From Dysgonamonadaceae bacterium (GTDB lineage: Bacteria > Bacteroidota > Bacteroidia > Bacteroidales > Azobacteroidaceae): a DNA stretch of 42,699 nt. The notes under the pieces were generated by a model. It worked only from the letters and a program-made list of their open reading frames with translations. It was not told the DNA's origin and ran no database searches. The position numbers and the translations under genes are program-made. The stretch spans positions 1 through 42,699 of the forward strand of contig JAISOJ010000093.1 of assembly GCA_031275735.1 (NCBI GenBank). The letters run 5' to 3'. Positions 6,501 to 35,870 of the stretch are shown piece after piece (the first letter of the stretch is position 1; each line of letters starts with the position of its first letter).

Positions 6501-7749
6501 TAATTGCATACAAGCCGTCGTTATCCGTTCCAATCCAAAGAATATTATCTTTGTCTTTATAAATAGCCGTTACACAATTAGAACCGATATTATTTTTCCG
6601 AAACGACTTATAGCCATAATAATTAAATCCGCTCGGATTGGCTGGAATAAAAAATACGCCTTTTTGGAAAAGACCTGCCCAGATATTACCGTCGCTATCT
6701 TCCAACAAGCTGTGTACTTTTGTTTTATGAAAATCGAAAGGAGAGGAAAAAGGTTCATACTCTTCCAATGCTTGTTTTTCAGGATTATACGTTTTAATTC
6801 CGTAACCATCGGTTCCCACATACAATTTTTTATTTCTATTATACAGCAAAGTTTTTACCGGAATATGCTTGTTTCCGTCCGTTCCATGAATAGGCGTAAT
6901 TTTTTGTCCGGATAATTCAAATTTATTCAATCCCCCATCCAAAGTCCCAACAAAAACAGTTCCTTTTTCACTTTCGCAAATAGCTGAAATAGAATTACTT
7001 GTTATTCCATTTCCTTCTTTGGAGGAAGTTGTGTAAAGACTTAATTCGCCAGTATCAAAAGAATACACATTCAATCCGCTGTTTTCTGTCCCAATCCAAA
7101 GATTATTGCTTGAATCCTCATAAATTACCGTTAGATAGAGGCTACTTAAATATTCATTTAGAAGAGTTTCCTGCGCACATTGGGTTTCGCCTTTTTTAAT
7201 TGAAAACAACCCCATGCCGGAAGTTGCAAACCAAATATCACCGTTTTTTCGCTCCAGAATTGATAAAATAGCAAAATTCAACGGTTTTCCGGTTTTATCC
7301 TTAATTACTACTTTAGTAAAAGAATCGGTATCACGATCGTATTTCATTAGTTCACCCAGACATTCCACCCAAAAATTCCCGGAAAAATCTTCCAGTATCG
7401 TTTGTACATGATTTTTCTTCAACGAAGTAGAATCGCCCGGAATTGTCCTGTAAACGAAAAACTGTGTTCCGTCGAATTTATTCAACCCGCTTTCGGTAGC
7501 TACCCAAATAAACCCTTTTTTATCTTGGTAAACCTGATTAATATAACTATTGGATAATCCTTGTTCTGTAGAATAAAATCTTGTGTTTTGGGCAAAAGCG
7601 CAACAGCAATTCAAAAATAAAAACAGATAAAAAAAAGTTAATATCAGACAATATTTCACATTAAAAAATGAAACTTTATAAATAAAAAATAAAAGATTGA
7701 TTTTATTTTTCCTTGCGTTACCCGGATATGTACGAGTATATGGATACAT
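3502..7749 (-). CDS. Hybrid two-component system protein (sensor kinase, receiver, AraC regulator)
   Basis: A 1415-aa one-protein signalling system (HTCS). In order: a signal segment (LTFFYLFLFLN, then CAFAQ); about 14 beta-propeller Reg_prop repeats with motifs such as IWVATESGLNKFDG; a Y_Y_Y domain around 735-800; a membrane helix around 825-850; HisKA with phospho-acceptor His876 (NISHEIRTPM); HATPase_c with GTGIGLHLARSL; a receiver with phospho-acceptor Asp1195 (ISDILMPKMDG); and a C-terminal AraC-type HTH (about 1310-1400). HTCS proteins usually sense glycan breakdown products and activate nearby polysaccharide-use genes, but no susCD pair is visible here, so its target is unknown. The ATG at 7749 leaves about 30 residues before the signal peptide. 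An in-frame GTG at 7659-7657 would give a conventional signal peptide and may be the true start. Confidence 0.93.
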   Translation of the reverse strand: MYPYTRTYPGNARKNKINLLFFIYKVSFFNVKYCLILTFFYLFLFLNCCCAFAQNTRFYSTEQGLSNSYINQVYQDKKGFIWVATESGLNKFDGTQFFVYRTIPGDSTSLKKNHVQTILEDFSGNFWVECLGELMKYDRDTDSFTKVVIKDKTGKPLNFAILSILERKNGDIWFATSGMGLFSIKKGETQCAQETLLNEYLSSLYLTVIYEDSSNNLWIGTENSGLNVYSFDTGELSLYTTSSKEGNGITSNSISAICESEKGTVFVGTLDGGLNKFELSGQKITPIHGTDGNKHIPVKTLLYNRNKKLYVGTDGYGIKTYNPEKQALEEYEPFSSPFDFHKTKVHSLLEDSDGNIWAGLFQKGVFFIPANPSGFNYYGYKSFRKNNIGSNCVTAIYKDKDNILWIGTDNDGLYAINETTQQVRHYANTGEQNSIPNTIMCILETSGDKLWIGSYLNGFALLNKQTGECSYVNNRTNKVITSNKIYCMTDDKKGGLWVGTYGGGLYKYDMALRSVVEHYYRNDETDDEFTSNWINSLLYEEEGLLWIGTYNGMGCLNVHTGTFDIYKKENSKLPSNIVFTLKKDKYDKIWIGTDGGLACYNKNNGEMKVYSIQDGLSNNHICSIDEDESGNIWMSTLSGITMYSPIKGEFTNYYASDGLQENEFSRGAHFKSVDGELFFGGLNGVTCFYPKDIRSNNKTLNVYITNFYLFGKAVYKGQKSGKKEILNKAVMDALRISLAHKDNVFSFEFSALEYGNPEAISYRYRLENFDSEWVNTPMGINRITYTNLNPGKYRLLFQAVDKGNKSDIKTIEIIIRSPWYKTIVAKIIYIILVLLGLYSIYAYLASRIKQRNEMLRLEHAEQISEAKLQFFTNISHEIRTPMTLIIGPLEKLLMKNNDETLRNTYLLIYRNAQRILRLINQLMDIRKIDRGQMRLKSRETDIIGFIKDIMQSFEYMAQKKNIVFEFNSPLPVLKAWIDLNNFDKVLFNVFSNAFKFTPERGKITVELATGSDYSSVGALKNYFEIRVLDTGIGIDKEKMDKIFERFYQINNEVTHSNFGTGIGLHLARSLVELQHGIIYAENRTDCQGSCFVIRLPLGNAHLKEDEIEIISEQTPPTINLFSKKEDMIDIEPETDEYPTTNARTKYRVLIVEDDIEISNYIKAELASLYKVSQSDNGRDALEIILKEKPDVIISDILMPKMDGITLCRKIKSNVNICHIPVLLLTVKKKEEDRAEGLDIGADAYMAKPFNPEILKKTVANLIANRERLKGKAQNQSEGLINKIEIKSFDEMLMGKIMKIINDNIEDPKLSGEMLSAKVGISRVHLYRKLKELTNQSARDFIRTIRLKQAGELLINKKHSISQVYTAVGFTSFAHFSTCFKEFYGVSPKDYMNGHTNLNKKRKKSVKDKNIDFPKR

Positions 7750-19423: not shown

Positions 19424-20620
19424 ATGCCAACATCTGTAAAAATAAAATTTTCGCCTTCAAAAATCAGAGGTAAAGAAGGCGTTATCTACTTGCAACTTAT
19501 TCACAACAGGAAAATTAAGTTGATCAGAACCCGATTTGGGATTTTTTCAAACGAGTGGGACGAAAATGCACAAGCAGTGAATTTAATTATTGATTCGCCC
19601 GAAAGAACGAACCAATTATTCGCTATAAAATCAGGATTGGACGCGGAAATCCATCAGATAAAAGAACTTACCCGCTTGCTTGAAATGAAAGGCGAATATT
19701 CCGTCGGCGAACTTGCCGAATTGTATGCCAATAACTCGTTCAACGGTTGTTTCTTTCCGTTTATCGACTTTACAGTCAATCAAATGCGCAAAGCCGGACG
19801 CAATAAATCATCGACTGTTCTTTTGACTGCCAAACGAAGTTTTGAGCGATTTCGGGCAGGGCAGGATATTTTGCTTACCCAACTCGATAACAACCTTATT
19901 CAGAAATACGCTCATTGGATACAATCATCAGGCATCAGGAAAAATACGCTCTCCTGCTATCTACGCACCTTGCGAGCGGTTTACAATCAGGCGGTTAAGC
20001 GAGGATTAACTACTCAAAACTTCCCTTTTGCAAACACCTATACAGGCATTGACAAAACCGTTAAACGCGCTGTAAACGAAGACGTAATCATCCGTTTGAA
20101 AAATCTCGATTTATCCGAGCATCCCGCACTTGCACTTGCTCGCGACCTCTTTCTGTTCAGTTTTTATATGCGGGGCATCTCGTTTGTCGATATGGCTAAT
20201 CTTCAGAAAACCAACATAAAGAACGGCTATATCGTTTACCTGAGGAGCAAAACCCGACAGATGCTGACCGTCAAAATCGAACCCTGTATGCAGGAAATCA
20301 TTGCCCGTTACGCTCATCAAACTATCGACGATTATCTGCTGCCTGTCTACACCTCTCATAATTGCGACAATACAAGTCAGTTGCGCAATCACAACCGGCG
20401 GCTGAAACGCATTTCCGAAAAACTCGGTTTGGAAAAGCCGTTGAGTTCGTATGTTTCCCGGCATACTTGGGCCACCATAGCCCTTCGGCGCGGCGTACCC
20501 ATCGAAGTTATCAGCGAGGGAATGGGGCACGAGAACGAATCGACAACAAGAATTTATCTTGCTTCTCTTGGACAATCGGTTGTAGATAAGGCAAATGCCG
20601 AGGTAATAAATTTGGAGTGA
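19424..20620 (+). CDS. Tyrosine site-specific recombinase, probable DNA invertase of the adjacent segment
   Basis: A 398-aa Bacteroidetes-type tyrosine recombinase. The N-terminal arm-like domain (MPTSVKIKFSPSKIRGKEGVIYLQL) and a SAM-like core-binding domain (about 105-210) precede the catalytic domain. Catalytic residues seen are Arg in FYMRGISFVDM, Lys near YLRSKTRQML, SRHTWATIA carrying the second Arg, GHENESTTR carrying the His, and Tyr in RIYLASL. As usual in this branch, the first position of HxxR is not His. Relatives in Bacteroides (Tsr family) flip nearby promoters, while others integrate mobile elements. The inverted repeat pair starting 348 bp downstream favours the invertase role. 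Codon usage is richer in G+C than in the flanking core genes. Confidence 0.9.
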   Translation: MPTSVKIKFSPSKIRGKEGVIYLQLIHNRKIKLIRTRFGIFSNEWDENAQAVNLIIDSPERTNQLFAIKSGLDAEIHQIKELTRLLEMKGEYSVGELAELYANNSFNGCFFPFIDFTVNQMRKAGRNKSSTVLLTAKRSFERFRAGQDILLTQLDNNLIQKYAHWIQSSGIRKNTLSCYLRTLRAVYNQAVKRGLTTQNFPFANTYTGIDKTVKRAVNEDVIIRLKNLDLSEHPALALARDLFLFSFYMRGISFVDMANLQKTNIKNGYIVYLRSKTRQMLTVKIEPCMQEIIARYAHQTIDDYLLPVYTSHNCDNTSQLRNHNRRLKRISEKLGLEKPLSSYVSRHTWATIALRRGVPIEVISEGMGHENESTTRIYLASLGQSVVDKANAEVINLE

Positions 20621-20967
20621 TTATCGGTTGAGTTCCCTGTTGATAAAATTCTGAAGAACTTTTTTGTCCGGAAGATTTACAAGATATTGAAAAACAAACA
20701 GATGATCGTCCATCCCTGCGGTAGCGAACTCGACTAAATCATATTCACACCCAAGCGATGCGCCGTCATGTCGACCGAGCGCAAGCGAGCGGAGACATCT
20801 TACGTCGAACTCAGGTTATAGAGGAAAGATACGACATTTTTCCGTAAAAATTGCCAACACATCAGATTTTTGTAATTCTGTATCCTCCGCTTCGGCATTT
20901 TTTGCCACACATCATCATTATCCGTAATCAAACTGATTAAACAGCCTGAAAGTTTGGTTTTTAATGA
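20621..20967. other. Intergenic region between recombinase and invertible segment, with a REP-like dyad
   Basis: This gap has no convincing gene. It holds an imperfect dyad of the kind dispersed in Bacteroidetes genomes: ATGTC (20768-20772) and GACAT (20794-20798) around a G+C-rich centre with the direct repeat CGAGCG. One copy only is seen in the window. It has no strong terminator for the recombinase. Confidence 0.4.
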
Positions 20968-20992
20968 CCGCCTATTACAAAGAGGAGGACAC
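20968..20992 (+). repeat. Left inverted repeat of the invertible segment
   Basis: This 25-bp sequence pairs with the reverse complement of 21323-21347 at 24 of 25 positions. The inner 18 bp, TTACAAAGAGGAGGACAC (20975-20992), match perfectly and the single mismatch is at 20974. The match stops sharply on both sides. Such repeats next to a tyrosine recombinase are the usual crossover sites of an inversion. Confidence 0.9.
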
Positions 20993-21013
20993 AATGTGTC
21001 AGTTTACGAGGTA

Positions 21014-21045
21014 CAAAGATATAAAATAATTCTGAATTAGACACA
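21014..21045 (-). promoter_or_regulatory. Promoter inside the invertible segment, facing away from the operon
   Basis: On the minus strand TGTG (21045-21042), 3 of 4 bases of TTTG, is followed after 20 bp by TATCTTTG (21021-21014), a full TAnnTTTG match. A second full -7 match without a good -33 (TATTTTTG) lies at 21061-21054. Plus-strand candidates in the segment are weaker, the best being TATGTTTA at 21117-21124. Confidence 0.55.
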
Positions 21046-21102
21046 TATAATTTCAAAAATATTTTTTTTACATTTCAACTTTTAGCATAAAATCCATTTA
21101 TA

Positions 21103-21119
21103 ATATTGATAATCAATAT
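21103..21119. promoter_or_regulatory. 17-bp palindrome inside the invertible segment, operator candidate
   Basis: ATATTGAT and ATCAATAT are perfect 8-bp inverted arms around a single A. The palindrome overlaps the weak plus-strand -7 candidate TATGTTTA. A smaller dyad (CAATCA-TT-TGATTG) lies at 21173-21186. Confidence 0.4.
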
Positions 21120-21267
21120 GTTTAATTGTTTGTTTTTACTTTTTTACGATTAGAGAAAATTAATCAGATCGACAATCATTTGATTGATAGTTTGATATGA
21201 TCCTATCGCGTCGTTTACTATAAAAATTGTTTTACAAAATGTTTCTCCTGGGGCTTAATGACGGTTT

Positions 21268-21310
21268 TTTGCAAATTTTATCATGCTGATAATAGGTAAT
21301 TTGCAAATTT
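21268..21310. repeat. Pair of TTTGCAAATTT direct repeats inside the invertible segment
   Basis: TTTGCAAATTT occurs at 21268-21278 and again at 21300-21310, 32 bp apart (about three helical turns), and its core is palindromic. The phasing would suit a protein bound on one DNA face, for example an accessory factor of inversion or a regulator. Confidence 0.45.
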
Positions 21311-21322
21311 GGCATTTTCCGC

Positions 21323-21347
21323 GTGTCCTCCTCTTTGTAAGAGGCGG
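21323..21347 (-). repeat. Right inverted repeat of the invertible segment
   Basis: The reverse complement of the left repeat at 24 of 25 positions, with the 18-bp core GTGTCCTCCTCTTTGTAA perfect. It ends 52 bp before the first operon ATG, leaving room for a short leader. Confidence 0.9.
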
Positions 21348-21399
21348 AACCGGTGTAGAATATGGAATAATAAAGAACATAACTGAAAAATGAACGATA

Positions 21400-24300
21400 A
21401 TGAATTTAATTGCCAATACCGGCATTCAGATGGTTACTGTCCCGATGGATATTAACCTGAACGGCGGTTTTAAAATGTTTTTTCACGAGTGGTACGATCC
21501 TGCCGAACAGCAGTTAAAATTAGAAATTGCGCACTATTTTTCGGAAGAAGACGTATGGGTGGCAAAACGGGACCTGGCGGAACTTGGTTATGCTATGAAC
21601 GGAAAAGTAGACTGTACGTGGGAAACTATTCAAAAGGATTTTGATGCCGAGGGTAAAAAAACGATTACAATCGAAACGGATGATGCAGTAGATTCGGGCT
21701 GTTTTCAGACGTCAATCAGCCGCCTCAACTGGAACAAGTTTGAGAACCTATGGTTTCCGGTGCCTTTTTTCCTGCGCAACGGCCACAATCGGTCGGAATT
21801 TGGACCGACCAACTGGTGCCGTTTTCGCCTGATTCCCATTACGACCGGAGGAACGGAACGAAAATACAACTTGCTGCTGGCTTTCGACACGAGGAGCGAA
21901 TTTGAAACCGACGACGAAGAACTGAACGAAACGCCTGTATTTACAAGCATTTACGACAGACAAAAAAAATACGGAATCTGCAACGACGAGCATAAGCTGG
22001 TAAATTACTGTTCGCAGGCTTCCAACTGTGGATGGGTGGACAAATATATTCTGAAACGGTTTCATAACATCGACGACATCAATGACTTGAAAGCGCCAAA
22101 GCCTAAACTTAACTACCTTGCCCAATACATTATTTTGCTGCGCTACATCGGACAACTCGAAATTTTGCCCCAAATAACCCTCCATTCCAATTGCAATGCG
22201 GCTCACAGCAATGTAGATTTGGTGGTTGATATCGGCAACTCACGCACTTGCGCCGTTCTTTTCGACGGAGGAGATTTTACTAAAACAAGCCCTCTCGAAT
22301 TGCAGGATTTTTCCGAGCCTATTTTTGACGGCAAACTCAACAAACACCGCGATCCGTTTGATATGCGTCTTGCATTTCGTGAAGCCGATTTCGGCGGTAA
22401 TTTCGGAATTGCCGACAGCCGGCAATTTGTTTATCCGTCGATGATTCGGCTCGGAAAAGAGGCCAACAGTCTGATACACAAAGCAACTAATATAAATACC
22501 GGCGCAGAGAAAACAAGCACATTTTCGAGTCCCAAAAGGTTTTTGTGGGATACGAAACCGCAAAGACAGGAATGGGAATTTGTGCTGTTGGCGGACGAAA
22601 CCGCTAAACCGATTTACATCAAAGGGATATCGGAACAGTTGAATACCGACGGCTCGCTGAATACCGGCGGCGACGGCGGAATCTTAATGCACTATTCGCG
22701 TAAAGCGTTGATGACATTTGCTTTTCTCGAAATTCTGGCACAAGCAAAAATGCAAATCAACAGTTATGAACAGCGAAGCCACTGGGGAAACGAAACCATG
22801 CCGCGCAAAATCGGGCGGATCATCGTAACCTGTCCAACTGCCATGTCGCGCGTAGAGCAGGTTGCCTTACGAAAATGCGCAGAAGACGCTGCAATCATTC
22901 TGAATCGTTTCTTTGAAGAAGCGCCTGCCGCCATTGTGATTCCTTCCCATAAAAATTTGTCTGCCAAGGAAGAACCTGCCGAATGGATCTACGACGAGGC
23001 GGCATCCGCGCAGTTTGTATTCCTATATGCCGAAATTCGAGAACGTTATCTGAAAAACGTAAAAGAATATTTCGAATTCTATGGAAAAATACGAAACGAT
23101 ATGGCGAATTACAATAAGAAATCTCTCACAATCGGTTCAGTAGACATTGGAGCGGGGACGACCGATGTCATGATTGCCGCCTATAAATACGAAGACGGCG
23201 TACAGTGCGCTCTAATACCGGTACCGCTATTTTGGGAAAGTTTCTACCTTGCCGGCGACGATTTGCTGAAAGAACTTATTCATCAACTCGTGATAGAGGG
23301 TGAATATTCGCCTGTTGAGAAAAAAATACGGACGATGGGCAATAACCCGGTCGAACTGATGCAGCCGTTTTTGGGTACCGATAATGGCGTTTCGTTTCGC
23401 AACAGGCAGCTGCGCAGTGATTTCAATTTGCAAATTTCGGTGCCGATCGTTTCGCATTATCTCGAATTACTGAAAGACGACCAAAAGGAAAGCATGAATT
23501 TGTCGTATGATGATATTTTTGCAAATAATCAGCCGACAAACAACGTATTGGAGCATTTCCGCCGGCAGTTCGGTTTTGAATTTCAATCTCTGCAATGGCA
23601 ATACGACAAAAAAACCGTTGCCGCAATTATCGAAAAAACCTTCGATTCGCTGATAGGCAAAATTTCTTCGCTGTTTTCGTATTATGCCTGCGATATTGTG
23701 TTGATTTCGGGACGTCCGACTTCGCTCAAACCGCTTGCCAACCTGTTTTTGAAGCATTATGCAATTGCCCCAAACCGTTTGAAAACGATGAACGATTATC
23801 GTGTCGGGCGTTGGTATCCCGAAGACAAACGATATCCGTTTATCGACGGCAACGGCAAATTTATCAATCCGAAATCAATCGTTACTACCGGCGCAATGAT
23901 TGGATACAGGGCGGAAAACGGAGGACTGAACGGTTTTTCACTCAATCTGAACGAACTGAAAGCAAAACTGACTCCGAAAACAAATTATTTCGGCATTCTC
24001 GACGAACAGTTGGAATACGGGGCGACAATTATCTCGCCCGAAACAAATCGCGCCGCAATTGAGGTTTCTTCTTTGCCTCTCCGCATTGGCGTCCGCCAGT
24101 TGGATATTTCCGCATACCCTTCGCGCCCGTTCTACACGCTTGATTTTAACGACATTAAATTGGAAGACAGAATTTTGGGCAAGTTGGAAAATGAAAACGA
24201 CAGAAATGCCGTTCAGAACGCTATCGACGAGGCTAAAACAAAGATTCGCATGAGTATGCCGCTGAAAATTATTGTAGAACGCGATTTTAACGATGATATT

Positions 24301-24450
24301 GAACAGTTGCGCATCGAAGAAGTAGTTGATAAAAAGGGAGAAACGCAGAACAGAAACTTTTTCTCGCTACAAATTCAAAGTATGAGCGAAGTAGAAAATT
24401 TCTGGCTCGATTCGGGTATTTTCCCGTTGAATATCAAACATATAAAGTAG
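21400..24450 (+). CDS. srfB: SrfB-like actin-fold ATPase
   Basis: This 1016-aa first gene of the operon resembles the SrfB family (named from the Salmonella srfABC locus, function unsettled). A family-specific N-terminal region (1-270) precedes an actin/Hsp70-like ATPase core. Phosphate-1 motif DIGNSRT is at 277-283, phosphate-2 DIGAGTTDVM starts at Asp582, and the adenosine-type loop LISGRPTSL lies near 768-776. No signal peptide or membrane helix is seen, so it is cytoplasmic. It probably couples ATP binding to assembly or conformational change with the SrfC-like protein encoded 13 bp downstream. The ATG at 21400 is the first good start after the invertible segment. The protein is intact and full length. 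Assignment to SrfB is from recalled family motifs, not from a search. Confidence 0.82.
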   Translation: MNLIANTGIQMVTVPMDINLNGGFKMFFHEWYDPAEQQLKLEIAHYFSEEDVWVAKRDLAELGYAMNGKVDCTWETIQKDFDAEGKKTITIETDDAVDSGCFQTSISRLNWNKFENLWFPVPFFLRNGHNRSEFGPTNWCRFRLIPITTGGTERKYNLLLAFDTRSEFETDDEELNETPVFTSIYDRQKKYGICNDEHKLVNYCSQASNCGWVDKYILKRFHNIDDINDLKAPKPKLNYLAQYIILLRYIGQLEILPQITLHSNCNAAHSNVDLVVDIGNSRTCAVLFDGGDFTKTSPLELQDFSEPIFDGKLNKHRDPFDMRLAFREADFGGNFGIADSRQFVYPSMIRLGKEANSLIHKATNINTGAEKTSTFSSPKRFLWDTKPQRQEWEFVLLADETAKPIYIKGISEQLNTDGSLNTGGDGGILMHYSRKALMTFAFLEILAQAKMQINSYEQRSHWGNETMPRKIGRIIVTCPTAMSRVEQVALRKCAEDAAIILNRFFEEAPAAIVIPSHKNLSAKEEPAEWIYDEAASAQFVFLYAEIRERYLKNVKEYFEFYGKIRNDMANYNKKSLTIGSVDIGAGTTDVMIAAYKYEDGVQCALIPVPLFWESFYLAGDDLLKELIHQLVIEGEYSPVEKKIRTMGNNPVELMQPFLGTDNGVSFRNRQLRSDFNLQISVPIVSHYLELLKDDQKESMNLSYDDIFANNQPTNNVLEHFRRQFGFEFQSLQWQYDKKTVAAIIEKTFDSLIGKISSLFSYYACDIVLISGRPTSLKPLANLFLKHYAIAPNRLKTMNDYRVGRWYPEDKRYPFIDGNGKFINPKSIVTTGAMIGYRAENGGLNGFSLNLNELKAKLTPKTNYFGILDEQLEYGATIISPETNRAAIEVSSLPLRIGVRQLDISAYPSRPFYTLDFNDIKLEDRILGKLENENDRNAVQNAIDEAKTKIRMSMPLKIIVERDFNDDIEQLRIEEVVDKKGETQNRNFFSLQIQSMSEVENFWLDSGIFPLNIKHIK

Positions 24451-24463: not shown

Positions 24464-27280
24464 ATGGAAAAACAGATACAGCATCAACTCGAAATAATAG
24501 AACAAGCCGGCAAGTGGATTGATAATTACCTCGACGGCGAAAAGAAAAAAGCCGCCTATCGCAATATGGCAAACTGCCGCCGCACCTTAAACCGCAAGAA
24601 GTTTGCCCTTGCAAGCAATCCTGCCGCAGCTATGTACGGCGAAAGCCAGGTAGGAAAATCATACCTCATCAGCAGTTTGCTGTCGGAAGAAGGCAATCCG
24701 TTCGGCATAAGCGATGAAAATGGCGGCAAGCATAATTTTATCGAGGAAATCAACCCGCCGGGAGGAGGCTCCGAATCGACGAGTCTTGTTTCGCGTTTTT
24801 CGGTAAGCTACAAGCCCTATAATCAACAATTTCCAATAAAAGTCGTCCTGCTCTCCCCTGCCGATATTGTACTTGTACTTTGCGACAGTTTCTACAACGA
24901 TATAAAGGGGATTCACGATTGGGCGTTAAAATCGGAAGAAATCAACACTGAAATTATCGCTTTGAAAGACAGGCTTAAAGACCGACAACAGCAACAAAAT
25001 GTGTTTGGCGAAGACGATGTACTTGATATGCAGGATTATTTTGAGAGTAATCTGACAAAAGCGGGCAATGCGCTATCGTCGATTTTTTTTGACGAAACAT
25101 CGCAGTTAATTTCAAAGGCGCGTCCAGGCGAATGGAAAGAAATTTTTCCTCTGCTGTGGAATAAAAATGAGAAATTTACAAATCTTTTCGCCTCCCTGAT
25201 TTCGGAATACGAAAAACTGAATTTTTCAAAAGTCGTTTATTTGCCGTTGGAGGCCGTATTTTGCAGATACGGCACGCTGCTCGATGTGAAACGGTTGATG
25301 GAAATATACGGCACGCCCGACAATATTCTGCCTGAATATCGAGCCGAAACCAAAGTTTTGCTCGACAACGGACAGGAAAATGTTTGTGCAAAATCGAGTT
25401 TGTGCGCCTTGGCAGCCGAAATTGTTTTCAGTCAGCCCGAATCATTGCTTGACAATAAACCGTTTCTGAAAGAAACCGACCTGCTCGACTTCCCCGGCGC
25501 CCGCTCACGCCTTACATTACCTGAAAATAACATTGAACGCGAAAGTATTCCCGAATTGCTGATTCGCGGCAAAGTGGCATATCTCTTCAACCGATATTCC
25601 AATGCCGAAAAAATCAATATCCTGTTGTTTTGCGCAAAACACGAGCAGGCGGCACAACGTTCAATGCCCGAAATGCTGAACAACTGGATTTGCAAAACCG
25701 TCGGCGGCACTCCCGAAAAGAGAGACGCATTCATCAAAAAATCGCAAATTCCTCCGCTTTTCATTATCGGCACGTTTTTCAACATCAACATGCAATACGA
25801 TCCGCTTTTGGACAAGCCAGACAACAACGTTGCCCTCGAAAACCGATGGAATCAGCGCTTCGAGCGCACCATGGCAAACGAACTGCTTAATACGGAAGCA
25901 TATAAATGGTTTGACAATTGGACTGTTTCGCAGCCCTGTTTTCAAAACATCTTTCTGCTTCGCGATTTTGAAAAATCGGAAACGCCGAGCCATATTTTTT
26001 CAGGATACAATGCCAACAAACAGGAACAAGAAGAAGTCATACCCCCCGCCTTCCCCGATTTCCGCCAAAAACTCCGTCAATCTTTCCTCGAATACGACTT
26101 TGTGCGCCGTCATTTTGCAAATCCCGCCGAATCGTGGGACGAAGCGGCAAGCATTAACAAAGACGGCACAGGATTGATTATTCGACAATTGACCATTGCC
26201 GCAAATAACATCAATGCCGCCCGCAGCGAGAAAACGCTTGCAGAACTCAAAGAAATCGAAACAAAAATCCGGTCGGAACTTCTAAAATATTTTCACAACA
26301 ACGACAAAGACGAAGAATTGCAACGTGCAAGAGCCGCAGCAGGCGAAATTCAAAAAACGCTTGATGCGGCATTCTGCGCCGACGGAATAAAATTCTACGG
26401 ACAAATGATGAAAGAACTGATGCTCGACGAGGCCTCCGTACTTGAACTTTACCATCGCAAAATCGGCGACATTGAACATCGCGAAGTAAAAAATCTCGAC
26501 GTCTATAATATGTACAGAATGCAAGTACCTGTCGTCGATAACGATTCTGTTGAGACATATTTTGAGCGCCTCTGCATTCATTACGAAAAAACAACGGAAG
26601 AACAGAAGAAGCAATTCCGCGCCGAACTTGAAGAAAAGCAAATGGATTTACAGGAACTCATCGACGGAAATTCCGAACTCGTAAAGAACAATGCACAACA
26701 ATTGGCAGAAACACTGCTCGAATACTGGCTGGATTCGGTTTCACGCCACGACCGTCAAATACTGCGTCGTATTTTGGCACATAACGGCTCGACGGCTTTG
26801 CAGGACATTATCGAAATGTTTCAAAAACTGTTCCGAAAAACAGGCATTGCCCGTCGGATTGCCGAAAAAATACGCCGCTATGTCGATGGACACAACAAAA
26901 CCGATTGGCCCTACGAGATAGTTGCCGACATCAGCGCCGAACTACTCAACAAGTGTATCAACACAGTAGGCTTCCAATATCTCGACGAGTCGGAAATCAA
27001 CGATTTGCGGCAGGCAAACGAGAAAAACAACCTTGGCCTGGTATTGGAACAAAATACCAATCAAACGGAAAAATCTGTTGAAGAACTGTTTAAAAAAATC
27101 GAAAACAGAACGGAAATTATCCATTCCAAGCCGGAAGAAATGAAAACATTGCCGAGTTACCGCAACTATCTTGCGTGGTACAACCGCCTTAAAATCGGTT
27201 TTGTATCTGTCTGCAACATACCGAATTACGATGTGGCGGCAAACGAAAGGCTGGGGACCATAATAAAAAACATAAAATAA
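24464..27280 (+). CDS. srfC: SrfC-like P-loop (dynamin-like) virulence-factor protein
   Basis: A 938-aa protein with a Walker A / G1 motif GESQVGKS at residues 59-66 and a G3-like DFPG at 342-345, with a long insertion between them. A G4 motif is not obvious; IGTFFNIN is the nearest candidate region. The C-terminal half (about 560-930) is predominantly charged helical and coiled coil, as in dynamin-like proteins. The layout fits the SrfC / Virul_Fac family that accompanies SrfB. No signal peptide or membrane helix was seen, so it is cytoplasmic, possibly membrane-associated. A purine-rich GAGGAG lies upstream of its ATG, unusual in a phylum that mostly lacks such sites. Probable partner of the SrfB-like ATPase. 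Confidence 0.8.
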   Translation: MEKQIQHQLEIIEQAGKWIDNYLDGEKKKAAYRNMANCRRTLNRKKFALASNPAAAMYGESQVGKSYLISSLLSEEGNPFGISDENGGKHNFIEEINPPGGGSESTSLVSRFSVSYKPYNQQFPIKVVLLSPADIVLVLCDSFYNDIKGIHDWALKSEEINTEIIALKDRLKDRQQQQNVFGEDDVLDMQDYFESNLTKAGNALSSIFFDETSQLISKARPGEWKEIFPLLWNKNEKFTNLFASLISEYEKLNFSKVVYLPLEAVFCRYGTLLDVKRLMEIYGTPDNILPEYRAETKVLLDNGQENVCAKSSLCALAAEIVFSQPESLLDNKPFLKETDLLDFPGARSRLTLPENNIERESIPELLIRGKVAYLFNRYSNAEKINILLFCAKHEQAAQRSMPEMLNNWICKTVGGTPEKRDAFIKKSQIPPLFIIGTFFNINMQYDPLLDKPDNNVALENRWNQRFERTMANELLNTEAYKWFDNWTVSQPCFQNIFLLRDFEKSETPSHIFSGYNANKQEQEEVIPPAFPDFRQKLRQSFLEYDFVRRHFANPAESWDEAASINKDGTGLIIRQLTIAANNINAARSEKTLAELKEIETKIRSELLKYFHNNDKDEELQRARAAAGEIQKTLDAAFCADGIKFYGQMMKELMLDEASVLELYHRKIGDIEHREVKNLDVYNMYRMQVPVVDNDSVETYFERLCIHYEKTTEEQKKQFRAELEEKQMDLQELIDGNSELVKNNAQQLAETLLEYWLDSVSRHDRQILRRILAHNGSTALQDIIEMFQKLFRKTGIARRIAEKIRRYVDGHNKTDWPYEIVADISAELLNKCINTVGFQYLDESEINDLRQANEKNNLGLVLEQNTNQTEKSVEELFKKIENRTEIIHSKPEEMKTLPSYRNYLAWYNRLKIGFVSVCNIPNYDVAANERLGTIIKNIK

Positions 27281-27300: not shown

Positions 27301-29898
27301 ATGGCAACGGTAAAAGGCAAAGTAGAAATGTTTCGCGCCGATTTGAAGCATTTCAAAGAACAGGCAGGAATTGGCGGTTGGCCGCTCTTTGAGCGCTATC
27401 CGGCGCTTGCAACTATTGTAAAAAACAATATCGGCGCTCGCTATCAAGACTTTTTATCTTATCCGACAAAAGAAGGCGGCAAAGTTACGTTTCATGGAAA
27501 AAAATATACAGAAACTCCCCGCATCCTGCCCGACTTGCCGAATGAAGAACAATCCAAATATCAAACAATTAAAAATGAAACAATTGCGCATTACAACAGC
27601 AAAATCGAGATGCTCCGAAATGCAGGCAAAACCCCGGAAGCCGATTTTCTCGCCGAAGCCATCAAACATATCGACGACCGATTTGTATATGGCTACGACG
27701 ACAGCGTTGTCTTGGGCGTATGGGGAATGAAACTTAAAGAAAACGCAAGCGTAGAAGATGGCGTTTTCCGCTGCCATTTGCGGCCCGGAAAAACGACGAC
27801 CCCGCCTAAGGAGCAAGACGATACCGTCGAACGTAAAGAAGAGCCGCCCATTTCTATTGTAGTAATCGACCCACCCGAGCCGCCTGATCTGCCGCCACGT
27901 CCCTGGTGGAAACGTTTTTGGCTATGGTTGACCGAATTGTGGGCCGGCAAAGGGTGCCTCAAATGGTTGCTTTGGCTGTTGCTTGCATTACTGTTGCTGC
28001 TGCTGTTATTATGCTTGCTTCGCAGTTGCAGTCATCACTCTGCCGGTGGAGGCGCTCTCGGCGCAAATGATTCTGCGTGGCTCGGCAACGACCCGAGGCG
28101 AGTTAGCGATGGCGGGGGCATATACGACCCGTATCATCCCTACGACCCTGTCCCGACGCCGCCCGAATACAGCGGCGTTTTGCCGCCGTCGCAAAACGTC
28201 ATCCCGCCTGTCGATACTGCACATATTATTCGCAAGCCGGGCGAACCCGTGGTTGTAGGAAACCGTCTGAATATTCTGATGGAAAACGAAAATAAGACGA
28301 TTATGCAGTTGGCAAAGGATTTCAAAACAAAATATCCCGACAACAAATATCGAGTTGTCTATTACGACAATACGGTCAAGCGCATGCAAATTGAACTCCC
28401 TTCGGAAGAGCGCGAGCGGCTGAAACAGGAAATACCTGACGCCTTTTCGCCCGATTACGAACTGTTTGTATTCGACGAATCATTGTTTGAAAGCAACTAT
28501 TCACCTTCCGACCCTGCATTTGCCGACAGCGAGAAAACCTGGTATCTGCAAGCGATAAAAGCCCCCGAAGCCTGGGATATTACTCGCGGCAATGCGGAAA
28601 TTGTAGTCGCGATTATCGACGGAGGTTTTAATCTTGCGCATCCCGAACTGAAAGACCGCGTTGTTTCGCCTTACAACGTATGGACCCACACCGACGAAGT
28701 ATTTCCGCAAAAGTTAGACCACGGCACGCACGTCGCCGGAATTGCACTTGCCGCAATGAACAATGGCAAAGGACTTTGCGGCATAGCGCCCGAATGTCGG
28801 TTCATGCCTGTGCAAATAGCCGACCGGCAATGTGTTATGACAACCACCTCCGTTCTTGACGGAGTACTTTTCGCCCTCTACCAGGGAGCAGATGTGGTCA
28901 ATCTTTCGCTCGGCGCTCAACTAACGGGACTTTCGGAATACCCTGTTGAAGTGCAGGCAGACTTGATCCGCAATCACTTCAAGGAAGAAGAAAGGCTTTG
29001 GCGCGAGGTAATGCGCATAGCAGCCAATCATAACTCCACCATTGTGGTTGCGGCAGGCAACGACAATGTACTGGCAGGCATTACTCCCATACAACGTCCG
29101 GAACAGACAATTACCGTTTCGGCAGTAAACAGGAACAGACAAAATATAGAAAAAGCCGAATTTAGCAATTACGGACCGTATTCCGACATATCGGCGCCCG
29201 GAGTAGGCATTTTCAGTTCGATCGGCAAAAACAACTACGCCGTCCATGAAGGCACAAGCATGGCCGCTCCGATTATTTCGGGAAGCATAGCGCTGATGAA
29301 AAGCCTGAACGATTCGCTGACTACCAAGCAAATACTCTGTATTTTGCAAAACACGGGATGGCAGACACAGGATAACATCGGGCAATTGATTCAATTGAAC
29401 AAAGCGCTCGAAAAAGTGAAATCGGGCGAGGAATGTATAGAACCTCCTTCGCCCTGCAATTCGATAGTGGCCTCCGGAGGCGACGAGGGGTATGTGGGAA
29501 GTTTTGAGATGGGACAACAATCAGGCGCCTTTATTTTTGCTTACAATACGCAAAATGTACCGGATAAAATAACATTATACGATGGCGTCAATACAAATGG
29601 GAAAGTTATTTTTACATACGAAGGAAGCACAAGAACGCCTCTTGCTTCAAACGTTCAGTTTCATCAACCGACAATTACAGTTGAAATTATTGGAGGAAAT
29701 GAAACTTACTGGGAATTTTTGATCAATTGCCCCGGGCAAAAATTTGAAATCGGTAACCCTCAAAATTCCGTTCCACCCTATACTAATTATTCGTCGGCAG
29801 ATGTCCGCCGTTCGCAGTTGGAGAACGAGCGCAACCGATTGCAACAAGAACTTGACAACGTGAACAGCGAATTGAGAAAAATTGAAAACGGCAGATAG
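27301..29898 (+). CDS. Membrane-anchored subtilisin-like (S8) serine protease
   Basis: An 865-aa three-part protein. Residues 1-175 form an unrecognised cytoplasmic domain; 183-197 is Pro-rich (DPPEPPDLPPRP) and followed by basic, Trp-rich residues; 219-243 is a Leu-rich membrane helix. After a linker, an inhibitor-I9-like pro-region (about 310-400) precedes the S8 domain with Asp440 (AIIDGGF), His474 (DHGTHVAG), oxyanion Asn587 (AAGNDN) and Ser653 (GTSMAAP), a complete catalytic set. A beta-rich C-terminal domain (about 725-835) and a short coiled coil end the protein. Positive charges before the helix put the protease in the periplasm and the first domain in the cytoplasm. In the operon it could be the effector or a maturation protease, gated by its cytoplasmic domain. 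Confidence 0.88.
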   Translation: MATVKGKVEMFRADLKHFKEQAGIGGWPLFERYPALATIVKNNIGARYQDFLSYPTKEGGKVTFHGKKYTETPRILPDLPNEEQSKYQTIKNETIAHYNSKIEMLRNAGKTPEADFLAEAIKHIDDRFVYGYDDSVVLGVWGMKLKENASVEDGVFRCHLRPGKTTTPPKEQDDTVERKEEPPISIVVIDPPEPPDLPPRPWWKRFWLWLTELWAGKGCLKWLLWLLLALLLLLLLLCLLRSCSHHSAGGGALGANDSAWLGNDPRRVSDGGGIYDPYHPYDPVPTPPEYSGVLPPSQNVIPPVDTAHIIRKPGEPVVVGNRLNILMENENKTIMQLAKDFKTKYPDNKYRVVYYDNTVKRMQIELPSEERERLKQEIPDAFSPDYELFVFDESLFESNYSPSDPAFADSEKTWYLQAIKAPEAWDITRGNAEIVVAIIDGGFNLAHPELKDRVVSPYNVWTHTDEVFPQKLDHGTHVAGIALAAMNNGKGLCGIAPECRFMPVQIADRQCVMTTTSVLDGVLFALYQGADVVNLSLGAQLTGLSEYPVEVQADLIRNHFKEEERLWREVMRIAANHNSTIVVAAGNDNVLAGITPIQRPEQTITVSAVNRNRQNIEKAEFSNYGPYSDISAPGVGIFSSIGKNNYAVHEGTSMAAPIISGSIALMKSLNDSLTTKQILCILQNTGWQTQDNIGQLIQLNKALEKVKSGEECIEPPSPCNSIVASGGDEGYVGSFEMGQQSGAFIFAYNTQNVPDKITLYDGVNTNGKVIFTYEGSTRTPLASNVQFHQPTITVEIIGGNETYWEFLINCPGQKFEIGNPQNSVPPYTNYSSADVRRSQLENERNRLQQELDNVNSELRKIENGR

Positions 29899-29922: not shown

Positions 29923-30870
29923 ATGAATCAGTCAAAATTCTCCTTAGCCGATGTGCTGACATTGCTTGCAGCCCTTGCTTTCGGCTTTGAATGCTTTCTC
30001 GGCGCCAACTTCCTTGCTTTGGGCGATACAGGGCCAAGCATTATTCTCGCGGCTATTATCGCCGTTCTGCTCGGAGGACATGCTTTCGGCATTAAACTGC
30101 TGAAACGGACAAGCCGCAACTTCAAATCCTGTTTTATCTGGGAAATGATTTTACTCGCGGCATTTGTCGGGTTCGCTGTCGTTTTTGCGAACTCGCCGTT
30201 CCCCCACTACTTCACCGTGTCGAGTAAAAAAGCGGATATTCAGACCAAACTTTCGGAGAGCATCACTCAAGCCGAAAACATGTTTGCCGAATATGAAAGT
30301 TATGCCGCAAACCGCGAAAAAATTTACGAAACCAAATTGCGCAGCGTGGTTGCGTCGGCAGATATAAATCCGGGCGAATATGCCGAATACGGCTTCGTGA
30401 ACGGCGTAGCGGCAGAAACACAAATAGAAAACAAGATGTTTACCGTTCACGCCGACCTGTTTCCGTCGAACTATACCGACACCATCGGCGGCAGCGGAAT
30501 AAAAGAAGTTGCACACGAGTGGCTTGCGAAGGCAAAAAAAACTACAAACGGATGGAAACCCATCGGCATTGTCGCTGTCGTGAACGAAGTGGAGCAAAAC
30601 TCAACCAACTGGCTCAATACCTTGATCGAACTGTCCAAAGTGCGTGAAAAAGGCGAAGAGGCAGCCGATTTTGCCTGTCCGCTCTCCTTTGAAGACACAA
30701 AAAAGGCTTTCAAAACGCTTGGCAAACCTACTCCGCTCACAATCGGACTCGCGGTACTGGCTTATGCGCTGATGCTGCTGTCGTGGTCTGTAACCAAAAG
30801 ACACACAAAATTTCCGGGACTGAAAATTCTTTTCGGAATGGGCGGATCAATAACCGGCAACGAACTGTGA
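29923..30870 (+). CDS. Four-helix inner-membrane protein of the Srf-like operon
   Basis: A 315-aa protein, not recognised. Three hydrophobic helices lie at about 9-30, 36-57 and 69-90, and one at about 270-292 (LTIGLAVLAYALMLLSW). Between them is a roughly 175-aa soluble domain with a helical opening (TKLSESITQAENMFAEYES) and a beta-rich remainder. The four helices put both ends on the same side; the soluble domain would then face the periplasm. No catalytic motif is visible. Co-transcription with the protease (24 bp gap) and the GTPase-like gene (26 bp gap) suggests a membrane scaffold or channel subunit. Confidence 0.75.
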   Translation: MNQSKFSLADVLTLLAALAFGFECFLGANFLALGDTGPSIILAAIIAVLLGGHAFGIKLLKRTSRNFKSCFIWEMILLAAFVGFAVVFANSPFPHYFTVSSKKADIQTKLSESITQAENMFAEYESYAANREKIYETKLRSVVASADINPGEYAEYGFVNGVAAETQIENKMFTVHADLFPSNYTDTIGGSGIKEVAHEWLAKAKKTTNGWKPIGIVAVVNEVEQNSTNWLNTLIELSKVREKGEEAADFACPLSFEDTKKAFKTLGKPTPLTIGLAVLAYALMLLSWSVTKRHTKFPGLKILFGMGGSITGNEL

Positions 30871-30896: not shown

Positions 30897-32252
30897 ATGA
30901 ATAAACAACATATATTAGACAACGTTGACAACCTGACGGCAGAGCAACTCTACAGTTGTATCAGTCAAGGAATTGTTTCTCTCGACGAATTGAAAAAAAC
31001 CGGTAACTTAGACGCATCTAAACGAGCAGCAATACAAAAATTGCAATCCAAACACGATAGCGAAGACGATGCAGCATGGGAAGAATGCCGATACGGTAAC
31101 GAAACCGGGCTGGCCGACTATATTTCAACCCATCCCAAAGGCAGGCATGTGAATGAAGCAAAACAAAGAATGGATGACCTGAGGCAAGAAAGAGAAAACA
31201 TCAGAGCGCAAAAACAGGATATTTTGGATAAAATACGCCGCAATTCAAATGCATATTACCCGAGCCAAATACTCGAATATTTGAGCAATGGCACTCTTAC
31301 CCAAAGCGAGTTGAAAAATTGCGGCATTCCTCAAACTGTGATCGACAATTTGGACAAGGTAGAAACGCCGCGCCTACAAATAGGCGAAACGCCGGACGAA
31401 ATACCTTCGGGCTACACCGAAGTATATTTTTGGGGCGGAACAGGTTCAGGCAAAACCTGCGCTTTGGGCGCTGTTTTGCAAATGGCCGAAGAGAAAGGCT
31501 ATTTGAATATTGCTCCCGGACCGGGTTGCCTGTATGCAACTCAACTGAAAAATATTTTTAGCGACGACGATGTTGCCAACGACTATCTGCCTGCGCCAAG
31601 CCCGCTCGAAACAACTCAATACCTGCCATTTACATTGAAACGCCCCAACGAAAAGCATAGCCGCTCCGTTTCTCTGATTGAATTAAGCGGGGAAATCTTC
31701 AAGTGTTTTTTCCATAAAAATGCAGGGCAACAATTGCCCACTCTATCGCACGAAAATACGTTCAATTCGCTGAATAATTTTTTGAAAAGCAACAATCGCA
31801 AAATTCACTTTTTCTTTATCGATTATGACGAGAAAAATGCGCCCGATGGCGATGGACTGAAACAGAGCGACTATTTGGCTGCCGCATCCACTTATTTCAA
31901 AAACAACGCCGTTTTCGGAAAAACAACCGATGCCATATATGTCGTTCTGACAAAAAGCGATTTATTGACAGACGAACTCGGCAAGAAAGTGCCGCCGGAA
32001 AAAAGGGTGGAGTACGCAAAAAAACATTTGAGCGCTAAAAGTTTTACTTCGTTCATCAATACACTGAAAGATAACTGCAAAAAATACAGCATCAATGCAG
32101 GAAAACTGACGGTTGAGCCGTTTTCGCTCGGCGGTGTTTATTTTCAGCAAATCTGTAATTTCGAGGGCAGCTCGGCAGAAAGAATACTCGAAATATTGAT
32201 GGACAGAATTGAGGTTAGCAAGAAAAGTATTTTGGATATATTGAATCAGTAA
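30897..32252 (+). CDS. P-loop GTPase-like NTPase with N-terminal adaptor repeats
   Basis: A 451-aa protein. A helical module of about 35 aa appears twice (about 14-48, with ISQGIVSLDELKKTG, and about 118-146, with LSNGTLTQSELKNCG). Between them is an AWEE...GLADYISTHPKGRHVNEA unit (about 59-98), of a type common in Bacteroidetes signalling and conflict proteins. The NTPase domain has Walker A GGTGSGKT at 180-187, a Walker B / switch-like SLIELSGE near 260, and a G4-like TKSD at 352-355, which suggests GTP. No membrane helix. The repeated modules look like adaptors that recruit a partner. The stop is 6 bp before the next gene, whose product is the most likely partner. The fold resembles GTPases of recently described conflict systems, but I cannot place the subfamily. 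Confidence 0.78.
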   Translation: MNKQHILDNVDNLTAEQLYSCISQGIVSLDELKKTGNLDASKRAAIQKLQSKHDSEDDAAWEECRYGNETGLADYISTHPKGRHVNEAKQRMDDLRQERENIRAQKQDILDKIRRNSNAYYPSQILEYLSNGTLTQSELKNCGIPQTVIDNLDKVETPRLQIGETPDEIPSGYTEVYFWGGTGSGKTCALGAVLQMAEEKGYLNIAPGPGCLYATQLKNIFSDDDVANDYLPAPSPLETTQYLPFTLKRPNEKHSRSVSLIELSGEIFKCFFHKNAGQQLPTLSHENTFNSLNNFLKSNNRKIHFFFIDYDEKNAPDGDGLKQSDYLAAASTYFKNNAVFGKTTDAIYVVLTKSDLLTDELGKKVPPEKRVEYAKKHLSAKSFTSFINTLKDNCKKYSINAGKLTVEPFSLGGVYFQQICNFEGSSAERILEILMDRIEVSKKSILDILNQ

Positions 32253-32258: not shown

Positions 32259-34925
32259 ATGAAGATAAAGATATTTGTACAGGGGACAAAAGACGGTTAC
32301 AACGTTTTGTATCCGCAACCGACGCCGAATGAGTTTTTTCAGTTTGCGGGCGATATGAGGCATAGGAATGTCAATAATGGCATTTTTCGCGGAAAATCAT
32401 TGTATTCGTTAGCGTTTGCAAAGGACGGCGGCTGTATTTTTACAAAATACGTTATCGTTCACGATGTGCAACGCTACAGCTTGGGAAATATCGGGCTTTC
32501 GTTTTTTATTCCAAAGGAAAACAAAATAACAGGCGCCGATGCAATAGCGCTTTTAGATGAACTTGCAAAGACATACGTGAACAATTATTGCCCGGATTAT
32601 AATCTCGGCAAAAAGCAGGAAGACTGGCCATTATTGACCTTGAAAGCAAATACTTACGACCTTCGATTACAATCCCTTTCCCCCGACGACGTCGACACCA
32701 TGCCATCCGGAACAACCGACGCCGCATTTATCTATTACCGCGACAACACAGAACTGCAACGCTATTTCGATGCACCATACCAAGACGAATACATGCAGTA
32801 TCGCCAAATACTTTTTGTAAGCGCCGATTTGAAAAACCAACCCGAAAATCCGCTCAATGCCTTGCGACATTCGGGAACAGACTTGACGGGAAAGATTGAT
32901 TTGGAAAATCCGAAATATAAATTGCGATTCAATGAATACGAAAAGAACGGATTAAAAATCAACGTAACAGCCAATGGAACAAGGAAATGTAATAATGATA
33001 AAGTAAGAAGAAAAAGCAAACTTGAAATTTCATACGAGCAGGAGTACCGCAAACCGGCGTACTATCCCGGCTCTATTGCAAATAATCTTCAATGTATAGA
33101 TATTGATGAACAGAACAAAACAATTACAATAAAACCTGTTATGCTTGAAAAAGAAAAAAAAACTGTAAACATTTGTGCGACAAATATAAACGGAAAATCA
33201 CTTTCAATTACACAAATAAAATGTAGAAATAGTTATCAACAAACAGAAAAGCCCATTACAGGCAATAGTATAACATTCGAAGGGGATGAATTAGGGGATT
33301 ATTGGGATATAGAAGTAGAAGTAAATGGCTATGAGAATAAAAAATGTCGATATAAACCGACGGAATATCCTGACAATAACTCCATTCCTTTTAAATTGGA
33401 AGAACAAAAAATCATTGAAATACAGTTGTCTGACGACAATGATCAGCCGATTGACAGCAGATATGTGATGATAAAAGTATTTTACCACAGGAGAGATGAG
33501 ATGCCTAAATATTGCATCAAAAACAACAAAAATAAATTTGTTTTTGTTGGAAATGAAATTGATAAGAAATGGCAAGTAGAGATTGAAAGCGATTATTATG
33601 AAGATAAGCACTTTACTACGATCAATCCAAAAATGATGCAAGGACATATTGAAAAAATCAAGTTAAGTAAAAAACCCATGCCTGTAAGAGATAACGAAAT
33701 TCCTCACAATGAGGATATCATTTTTTATTTTAAAGAGGGCAAACATGGTAAATGGCCAAAAAAAGAAGAACGCAATAAACCAAAAATACTTCCATATAAA
33801 CCAAATAAACCAAACACTTTTAATATTAAGGAAAACGCTCCTAAAGTTAGACCTGATTTTTTCTTTCAATTAGACAAATGGCAAGCAACTAAAAAACAGG
33901 GAGAAGAAAACAGAATTTGCTATACTGCTCAATATAAACCGAATTGGGTAAGTATAATTTTGAGTTCCATGGTAGTTGTTGCTGTTATTATCGGACTTGT
34001 TTGTTGGGGATTGGGCGTATTTAATGGAAAAGAAAATAAGAATAAGATTTCTACTCAATCCTTAGAAATATATATTGCCGATAACGAACTACGGCTTTCG
34101 GTATTAGAAGATTCCTTACAAACTAAATTTAGTAATCCGCCTGAAGTAAAAATAGAGAAAAGTTTTGGGCAGTCAATCCTTGGTATCTTTGGTATCGGCG
34201 ATAAGGAAGAAAAGCGGGATTCTACTGATTATAATAAGTGGATAAGTAAAAAGCAGCAGTTGGAAAATGTTATTGCTTTACGTAAACGGATAGACGAGAA
34301 GAAGTTTTGCGATTCATTGGTAATTAATTACGTCTATTCCGACCGGCAAAAATGCTTCAAAAATGCAATAGACACGGTTCTAAAAGCAAATAAATGTGAA
34401 GAAGTTGCTCAAAAGTTTGATGTTGATACCGTTTCTTCTATGTCTTTGACACAAATTGCCGAAAAGATTAATTCGATTTTGCAGCCGCCGAAGGAAGAGA
34501 AAACAATAACGGATGATGCAGGCAAGCAGAGTAATCCGCCAACAAATCTGCAAAATGCACCAAATACGACGACAAAATCAAATCAGGATAAAAATTCTGG
34601 TGATGCTCGGCAAGATATTATCCAATACATCAAAGGCAATGAATTAAAAAAAGATGTGTTAGAGAAATATATGCGCGATATTGGTAAAGACGATGCATTG
34701 AAAGGCAGCATTAATTTATGTATAAAATTTTGGACATTAGATGGTTCAAAAAATAAATCATATTCCTCTTTTCAAAAAGAAATAAATAACGATACCGTTC
34801 TTCAAAACAGCGAATTAAATAATTTTGTAGATAAGATGTGCAACGTTGAAAAACCAAAGTATTTGCCAGACATAAGAGGAACTAAAACAATCTCTACTTT
34901 ATCCCAATTAAAAAATCTCCAATAA
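32259..34925 (+). CDS. Large single-pass membrane protein, possible GTPase partner
   Basis: An 888-aa protein, not recognised as a named family. Residues 1-250 form a globular domain opening MKIKIFVQGTKDGYNVLYP, loosely like N-domains of GTPase-associated proteins in conflict systems (weak resemblance). Residues 270-470 hold at least two similar beta-rich modules (each with an N-K-F/I-x-F-x-G/E-x-E-x-x-x-W-x-I/V-E pattern, at ITFEGDELGDYWDIEVE and FVFVGNEIDKKWQVEIE). A membrane helix spans 563-588, then a helical C-terminal part, with a polar Gln/Asn/Thr-rich linker near 750-785. With no signal peptide, the N-terminal 560 residues are probably cytoplasmic and the C-terminal 300 periplasmic. 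From about 32940 the DNA becomes strikingly A+T-rich, unlike the start of the gene. The next gene begins 1 bp after the stop. Confidence 0.72.
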   Translation: MKIKIFVQGTKDGYNVLYPQPTPNEFFQFAGDMRHRNVNNGIFRGKSLYSLAFAKDGGCIFTKYVIVHDVQRYSLGNIGLSFFIPKENKITGADAIALLDELAKTYVNNYCPDYNLGKKQEDWPLLTLKANTYDLRLQSLSPDDVDTMPSGTTDAAFIYYRDNTELQRYFDAPYQDEYMQYRQILFVSADLKNQPENPLNALRHSGTDLTGKIDLENPKYKLRFNEYEKNGLKINVTANGTRKCNNDKVRRKSKLEISYEQEYRKPAYYPGSIANNLQCIDIDEQNKTITIKPVMLEKEKKTVNICATNINGKSLSITQIKCRNSYQQTEKPITGNSITFEGDELGDYWDIEVEVNGYENKKCRYKPTEYPDNNSIPFKLEEQKIIEIQLSDDNDQPIDSRYVMIKVFYHRRDEMPKYCIKNNKNKFVFVGNEIDKKWQVEIESDYYEDKHFTTINPKMMQGHIEKIKLSKKPMPVRDNEIPHNEDIIFYFKEGKHGKWPKKEERNKPKILPYKPNKPNTFNIKENAPKVRPDFFFQLDKWQATKKQGEENRICYTAQYKPNWVSIILSSMVVVAVIIGLVCWGLGVFNGKENKNKISTQSLEIYIADNELRLSVLEDSLQTKFSNPPEVKIEKSFGQSILGIFGIGDKEEKRDSTDYNKWISKKQQLENVIALRKRIDEKKFCDSLVINYVYSDRQKCFKNAIDTVLKANKCEEVAQKFDVDTVSSMSLTQIAEKINSILQPPKEEKTITDDAGKQSNPPTNLQNAPNTTTKSNQDKNSGDARQDIIQYIKGNELKKDVLEKYMRDIGKDDALKGSINLCIKFWTLDGSKNKSYSSFQKEINNDTVLQNSELNNFVDKMCNVEKPKYLPDIRGTKTISTLSQLKNLQ

Positions 34926-35868: not shown

Positions 35869-35870
35869 TG

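Follow-up and report, generated by a model that had tools for sequence, protein, structure and literature searches.

Promoter inversion by tyrosine recombinases is established in Bacteroidales, as the original prediction for the present locus had stated for surface loci, and the Tsr19/IVp-I system of Bacteroides fragilis is among the closest described cases (PMC4747536). In the accessible sections of that report, the tyrosine recombinase Tsr19 (BF2766) has a promoter inverton directly downstream, which precedes an operon; the cargo consists of genes for exopolysaccharide, and a distant promoter is inverted by Tsr19 as well. Groups of invertases and invertons, and the links between them, have been described for gut Bacteroidota (PMC11892184). 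There, too, tyrosine-type recombinases lie near invertons and are oriented such that the inverton promoter cannot drive them; the available text stresses surface genes, and 'tellur' and 'terd' each have 0 occurrences in it. Invertible promoters with non-capsule cargo are found before resistance genes of Bacteroidales, with the invertase just upstream in one class, according to the accessible part of PMC8748976.

Here we describe a locus in the window (the whole stretch of 42,699 nucleotides that was analysed, equal to contig 35 in an assembly of 2.43 Mb and 75.9% completeness), in which a tyrosine recombinase gene, a probable promoter inverton and a Srf operon follow one another. We liken its recombinase to Tsr19 by arrangement, not by sequence. 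The locus differs from Tsr19/IVp-I, as far as the latter is covered by the sections cited, in its Srf cargo and in having one site pair in its own incomplete assembly; it differs from the switches before resistance genes, which are on integrative elements and derive from capsule loci. The SrfB and SrfC-type genes are adjacent as in the enteric srfABC operon (PMC6950479, the accessible part of which does not mention inversion), but the operon of the window has a nine-gene form with a subtilase.

Recombinase and inverted repeats

The features of the locus are as follows.

19424-20620, plus strand: tyrosine recombinase, 398 aa, probable invertase (Pfam Phage_int_SAM_5, Phage_integrase and Arm-DNA-bind_5)
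20968-20992, plus strand: left inverted repeat, near-palindromic, probable recombination site (repeat comparison)
20993-21322, no strand: probable invertible segment, 330 bp, non-coding (ORF list; homologue oppositely oriented in a related locus, L099)
21014-21021, minus strand: -7 box TATCTTTG of a putative outward promoter, with TGTG 20 nt upstream (motif); reads toward the recombinase gene (OFF)
21323-21347, minus strand: right inverted repeat, probable recombination site (repeat comparison)
21400-24450, plus strand: srfB, first operon gene (PF07520, 2.3e-183)
24464-27280, plus strand: SrfC-type gene (Virul_Fac; PF10139, 3.3e-119), P-loop pattern at residue 59
27301-29898, plus strand: S8 subtilase (PF00082; PADLOC subtilase model)
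29923-30870, plus strand: operon gene, no Pfam match; homologue in the same order in genome G433
30897-32252, plus strand: operon gene, no Pfam match; homologue in the same order in G433
32259-34925, plus strand: operon gene, no Pfam match; homologue in the same order in G433
34927-35868, plus strand: operon gene, no Pfam match; homologue in the same order in G433
35868-36950, plus strand: operon gene, no Pfam match; homologue in the same order in G433
37067-38470, plus strand: ninth gene, TPR and outer-membrane beta-barrel type; homologue in G433

Re-measurement returned the geometry that had been claimed for the repeats: two arms of 25 nt, complementary at 24 of 25 positions with the inner 18 perfect, around a 330-nt loop, 347 nt after the end of the recombinase reading frame and 52 bp before the operon. 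The segment (20993-21322) is without any ORF of at least 90 aa in the ORF list, and Rfam gave zero matches over 20500-21500 at E up to 1. The repeat score of the arms (matches minus mismatches, arms at most 1.5 kb apart) was 23; among 60 dinucleotide shuffles of the window, 59 yielded 12-18 and one yielded 20. The inner 16 nt of the arms have 2 exact copies in the assembly, both at 20968-21347; at 3 mismatches, 8 more places were found versus 29 for the reversed control. When one mismatch is allowed, the arm core is found in its own incomplete assembly only as this pair, in G433 as the pair of its Srf locus plus one more place, and in G013 at two one-mismatch sites. By eye, the arms are nearly palindromic, each with two half-sites of some nine bases separated by a centre of three, which suits a core site of a tyrosine recombinase. 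A MITE-like dispersed inverted-repeat element is not supported, the sole near-full-length match of the segment in its own assembly being the segment itself. A separate dispersed repeat (20749-20820), with 8 other places at 91-94% in the assembly, lies between the recombinase gene and the left arm.

The Pfam domains agree with the tyrosine recombinase that had been predicted 347 bp upstream of the segment. R250, K276, R346, H369 and Y378, which we take to be the catalytic residues, are invariant across 15 aligned homologues, and the locus has a tyrosine recombinase of its own with intact active-site residues. NCBIfam returned only Xer/integron models below cut-off for this protein. A promoter switched by an adjacent serine invertase (Mpi-type) was considered and rejected, the recombinase beside the segment being of the tyrosine type. 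The 29 relatives of the recombinase are nearly all titled Bacteroidales or Bacteroidia, with two MAG records titled Clostridium and Paenibacillus; many of the MAG series presumably derive from termite guts. In a tree of 24 recombinases, that of the window groups with those of L099 and L098 (99/97), then with those of L057 and L058 (100/100). The close relative of the L099 recombinase at L098:2427-3623 is without a repeat pair in the 1763 nt downstream.

Promoter motifs and orientation

The promoter TGTG-20-TATCTTTG, described earlier as lying on the minus strand and facing away from the operon, is present as described; the distance between the 3' end of the box and the outer limit of the left arm is 46 nt. 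By its motif, it is a putative outward promoter of the Bacteroidetes type within the segment. At 25-60 nt from the operon-side end of the segment, no TAnnTTTG was found in the window. A sigma-70 scan gave 4 sites against 3.5 expected. A terminator-like hairpin (20988-21000, minus strand) overlaps the inner end of the left arm, just past the promoter. By symmetry it would also precede srfB in the ON form, so that either it does not act as a terminator or it speaks against the model.

The check that had been proposed, a search of related assemblies for the flipped form, identified one in a genome titled Tannerella sp. Pcl387_bin3 (JAITJX010000068.1; locus L099, same contig as G433:C51). The order of recombinase, segment (loop 327) and Srf operon is that of the window, all nine operon genes have homologues in the same order, and the downstream flank is common to both. 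Identities between the two loci are 67% for the recombinase, 86-87% for SrfB and 86% for SrfC. The segments, compared without their arms, are moderately similar and scored 73 inverted and 23 direct, against a maximum of 54 in 500 dinucleotide shuffles (best of both directions). A third segment (L125) has the direction of the window (55) and is opposed to L099 (49 inverted). The window and L099 thus present both orientations at one locus among relatives.

The end carrying TGTG-20-TATCTTTG adjoins the recombinase in the window, and its counterpart (TTTG-20-TATTTTTA, a match of only 5/6) adjoins srfB in L099; the window is therefore most likely OFF and L099 ON. The only full box of L099 near an end, TAACTTTG, faces the recombinase and was counted as such; the ON assignment consequently rests on homology, and by boxes alone L099 would not be called ON. 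With this reading, which combines the direction of the box with the position of the homologous end in L099, the predicted OFF state of the window assembly is probably correct.

Cassettes at other recombinase loci

We compared 34 recombinase loci (the window, the 29 relatives and 4 from further genomes). At 18 of them, arms of 20-32 nt enclose loops of 314-365 bp downstream of the recombinase gene; the segment starts 5-75 nt after that gene in 16 of the 18, 347 nt after it in the window and 632 nt after it in L099. By eye, a single loose pattern is common to the arms of the remaining cassettes. Shorter loops are present at two loci, L120 (166) and L122 (221); the latter was left out of the 18 on account of its better pair (17/17, 221-bp loop) versus 17-nt arms with 15 matches and a 335-bp loop. 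An arm-like pair is absent from the remaining 14 loci within 1.8 kb downstream or the remaining contig, L113 having a chance-like pair only and L108, L112 and L124 having less than 300 nt left on the contig. As a control, 160 other ORFs of the same loci (some contigs counted twice) were scanned, and one had a pair with a score of at least 16 and a loop of 300 to about 420 bp; all 18 cassettes pass this score, the lowest with 20. The lone control match, L070, has a 40-aa recombinase remnant. Among more distant recombinases of the order (28, of which 25 were anchored, not L129, L139 and L144), 16 of the 25 have a downstream repeat pair with loops of 141-404 bp; 5 of the 25 have less than 200 nt left.

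Outward-facing TAnnTTTG boxes occur 25-60 nt from the end at 20 of the 36 segment ends (mean 1.38 and maximum 6 in 500 shuffles), in a zone chosen after the boxes had been viewed. Every segment has at least one; the boxes face only the recombinase in 14 segments, only the operon in 2 and both in 2. As candidate arm-type sites, TTTGTTT (present in 14 of 19 loops against 5.3 expected) and TGTTTAA (in 11 of 19 against 4.1 expected) are enriched in the loops; they were chosen from all 7-mers in AT-rich sequence, with one of the 19 loops later excluded, and no claim is made of them. Three further pairs of homologous segments are reversed relative to each other, each beyond 500 shuffles: L059/L102 (118 inverted, 32 direct), L118/L119 (425 inverted, 22 direct) and L100/L103 (573 inverted, 25 direct). 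L059/L102 and L118/L119 have a common downstream flank, so each pair represents one locus in two states; L100 and L103 are two copies in one genome with different downstream genes.

Going beyond the original prediction, related recombinases have such segments before varied operons. In classes of our own, based on part of the downstream ORFs, the 18 cargoes comprise Srf 2, TerD 5, other kinase/NTPase-type 4, surface or transport 3 and no assigned class 4; 11 of the 18 are of intracellular NTPase, kinase or stress type. Srf cargo is found in the window and L099, and TerD cargo at L059, L102 (as L061), L125 (as L065), L111 and L117. The TerD-linked recombinases fall in two clades of the 24-recombinase tree, indicating that cargo and recombinase are not strictly tied. 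The other kinase/NTPase-type loci have kinases behind an HU-type and an FtsW/transpeptidase gene (L057), FHA/trypsin and PP2C (L107), a HerA-like ATPase as third ORF (L101) and a DO-GTPase as second gene (L100); DO-GTPases have been described as parts of NTP-dependent conflict systems (PMC7159879, accessible part). Surface or transport cargo consists of SusC/D (L106), a solute-binding protein (L110) and a glycosyltransferase (L118). No class was assigned to small DnaJ-zinc-finger-like proteins (L103, L109), a 58-aa fragment (L060) and the first gene of L119, which lacks a match although L119 and L118 have the same flank.

Two loci deserve separate mention. At L070:3656-4277 an inverton precedes branched-chain amino-acid ABC transporter genes; the remnant there is C-terminal (40 aa, 83%), and the inverton is possibly served by a recombinase encoded elsewhere. 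At L065:4171-5166, on the contig of L125 and next to an inverton and TerD genes, the recombinase frame is open and is without residues 144-211 relative to the window.

The Srf operon and its relatives

A nine-gene operon of the SrfB/SrfC type had been predicted to start 52 bp past the segment, and this was borne out, with srfB beginning at 21400 and the SrfC-type gene adjacent to it. P-loop patterns are present in the SrfC-type protein and in a 451-aa operon protein, and we read the SrfB sequence as bearing ATPase motifs of the actin/Hsp70 type. Other products of the operon have hydrophobic N-termini, and one is of the outer-membrane type. Its likeliest role would be that of an NTP-driven complex for envelope stress or conflict, the continuous expression of which is costly. 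NCBIfam had no match for SrfB, SrfC and the five unnamed operon genes, and PADLOC found the subtilase only. Searches of solved structures by sequence gave none for SrfB and 8 chance-level antibody-like matches (E 0.12 to 1) for the SrfC-type protein; a structure prediction for SrfB was discarded (two-row alignment, mean pLDDT 27.5).

Tandem arrays of 8-bp repeats (GTTTACTC/GTCAACTY type) are present at 1228-1303, 35919-36030 and 37013-37099, two of them preceding operon genes 8 and 9. A three-unit pattern of the repeat has 108 forward and 100 reverse matches in the assembly, partly overlapping; the reversed control has 0. Regulators of the hybrid two-component type, which combine a propeller, a histidine kinase, a response regulator and an AraC-type HTH, are encoded at 3502-7749 of the window and at L070:102-3656.

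Among sampled genomes, SrfB was detected in 24 of 393 from the order and 3 of 45 from the family, both counts including the genome of the window. Arms like those of the window were seen at none of 24 other SrfB loci with upstream DNA (26 loci minus L021 and L087, which are without DNA upstream of srfB; 285 to 1524 nt scanned, judged by eye); 8 of the 24 have AT-rich or otherwise chance-like pairs. One genome of the same genus (G027) has the first eight operon genes in order, where the stretch ends (SrfB 58%, SrfC 62%). No match of the window recombinase was found in its 20 kb, 4.3 kb of which is upstream of srfB. A box, TACCTTTG, lies 256 nt before srfB. Farther upstream, at 421-1479 nt from srfB and outside this box, is a repeat pair of 21 nt (19 matches, loop 1017), which is unlike the window arms. 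From these sequences, the window lineage appears to have acquired the switch as an addition to its Srf operon, or G027 may have lost it.

Proposed mechanism and alternative explanations

Overall, the reversal in L099, the recombinase family and the recurrence of recombinase plus segment all support the inverton reading first put forward, and we consider it very probable that 20968-21347 is an invertible promoter flipped by the adjacent tyrosine recombinase, with the Srf operon OFF as assembled. The recombinase would bind and synapse both near-palindromic arms and invert the 330 bp between them. As assembled, the outward promoter would read toward the recombinase gene and leave the Srf operon OFF; transcripts would then extend antisense toward the recombinase gene, provided that they are not terminated at the 20988-21000 hairpin. 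After inversion, the box would lie on the inner side of the right arm, about 98 nt before srfB, reading into srfB (ON). Flipping is predicted to continue within populations, with ON and OFF differing in transcription.

It is unlikely that a formerly working switch is now locked, with lineages fixed for either orientation and the difference between the window and L099 being old rather than phase variation. One orientation per genome was seen, and the 67% identity of the recombinases places the two loci far apart in time, but the reading frame of the recombinase is unbroken and its aligned active-site residues do not vary among the 15 homologues. Moreover, the arms are nearly identical within each of the 18 loci and different between loci, as expected if recombination is kept up. 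Still less probable is a decayed mobile element, with the recombinase as its integrase, the repeats as its old end or attachment sites and no flipping: the arms are inverted, not direct, the order of recombinase and segment recurs at 18 loci with loops of 314-365 bp, and homologous segments are reversed in four pairs. These features outweigh the homologues at about 40-45% identity on 93 plasmid and 68 phage records (all identities below 60%) and the dispersed repeat inserted between recombinase and left arm.

The segment could also flip and set the recombinase (e.g. by antisense RNA), the Srf operon being a bystander with its own promoter. In 16 of 18 segments, a box is directed at the recombinase gene, which is convergent with it (14 only there, 2 at both ends), and G027 has a Srf operon with the TACCTTTG box before srfB and no such recombinase found in its stretch. 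However, the window is without a comparable box in the 52 nt between right arm and srfB, and at two loci, the Ter locus L102 and L119, the box points toward the operon; this explanation, too, appears highly improbable.

Implications

The original prediction knew of no Srf-type operon under such a switch. This holds for the open-licence PMC literature, where, among the matches listed, neither SrfB nor TerD was found together with inverton or invertible-promoter terms. With a mechanism known from Tsr19/IVp-I and Srf/TerD cargo not found in print there, the locus represents a known kind of switch with an unusual cargo.

More tentatively, the cassettes may form a modular recombinase-plus-inverton unit placed before intracellular NTPase, kinase and stress-conflict operons (Srf, Ter, DO-GTPase, HerA, FHA/PP2C) in Bacteroidales, which would restrict production of a costly multi-protein complex for defence or stress to part of the population; an OFF promoter antisense to the recombinase might help to hold the OFF state. 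Comparison of the window, L099 and the switch-less G027 shows that the switch was gained or lost beside an operon common to all three. Most discussion of phase variation in Bacteroidales concerns capsules and outer-membrane proteins; here, related local switches precede SrfBC and TerD operons, whose roles are poorly understood. The opposite orientations at one locus, and the carriers named as isolates for HerA, TerD and other versions (L101, Paludibacter sp. 221; L109, Parabacteroides sp. PH5-46; L111), would allow a comparison of ON and OFF, which could reveal these roles.
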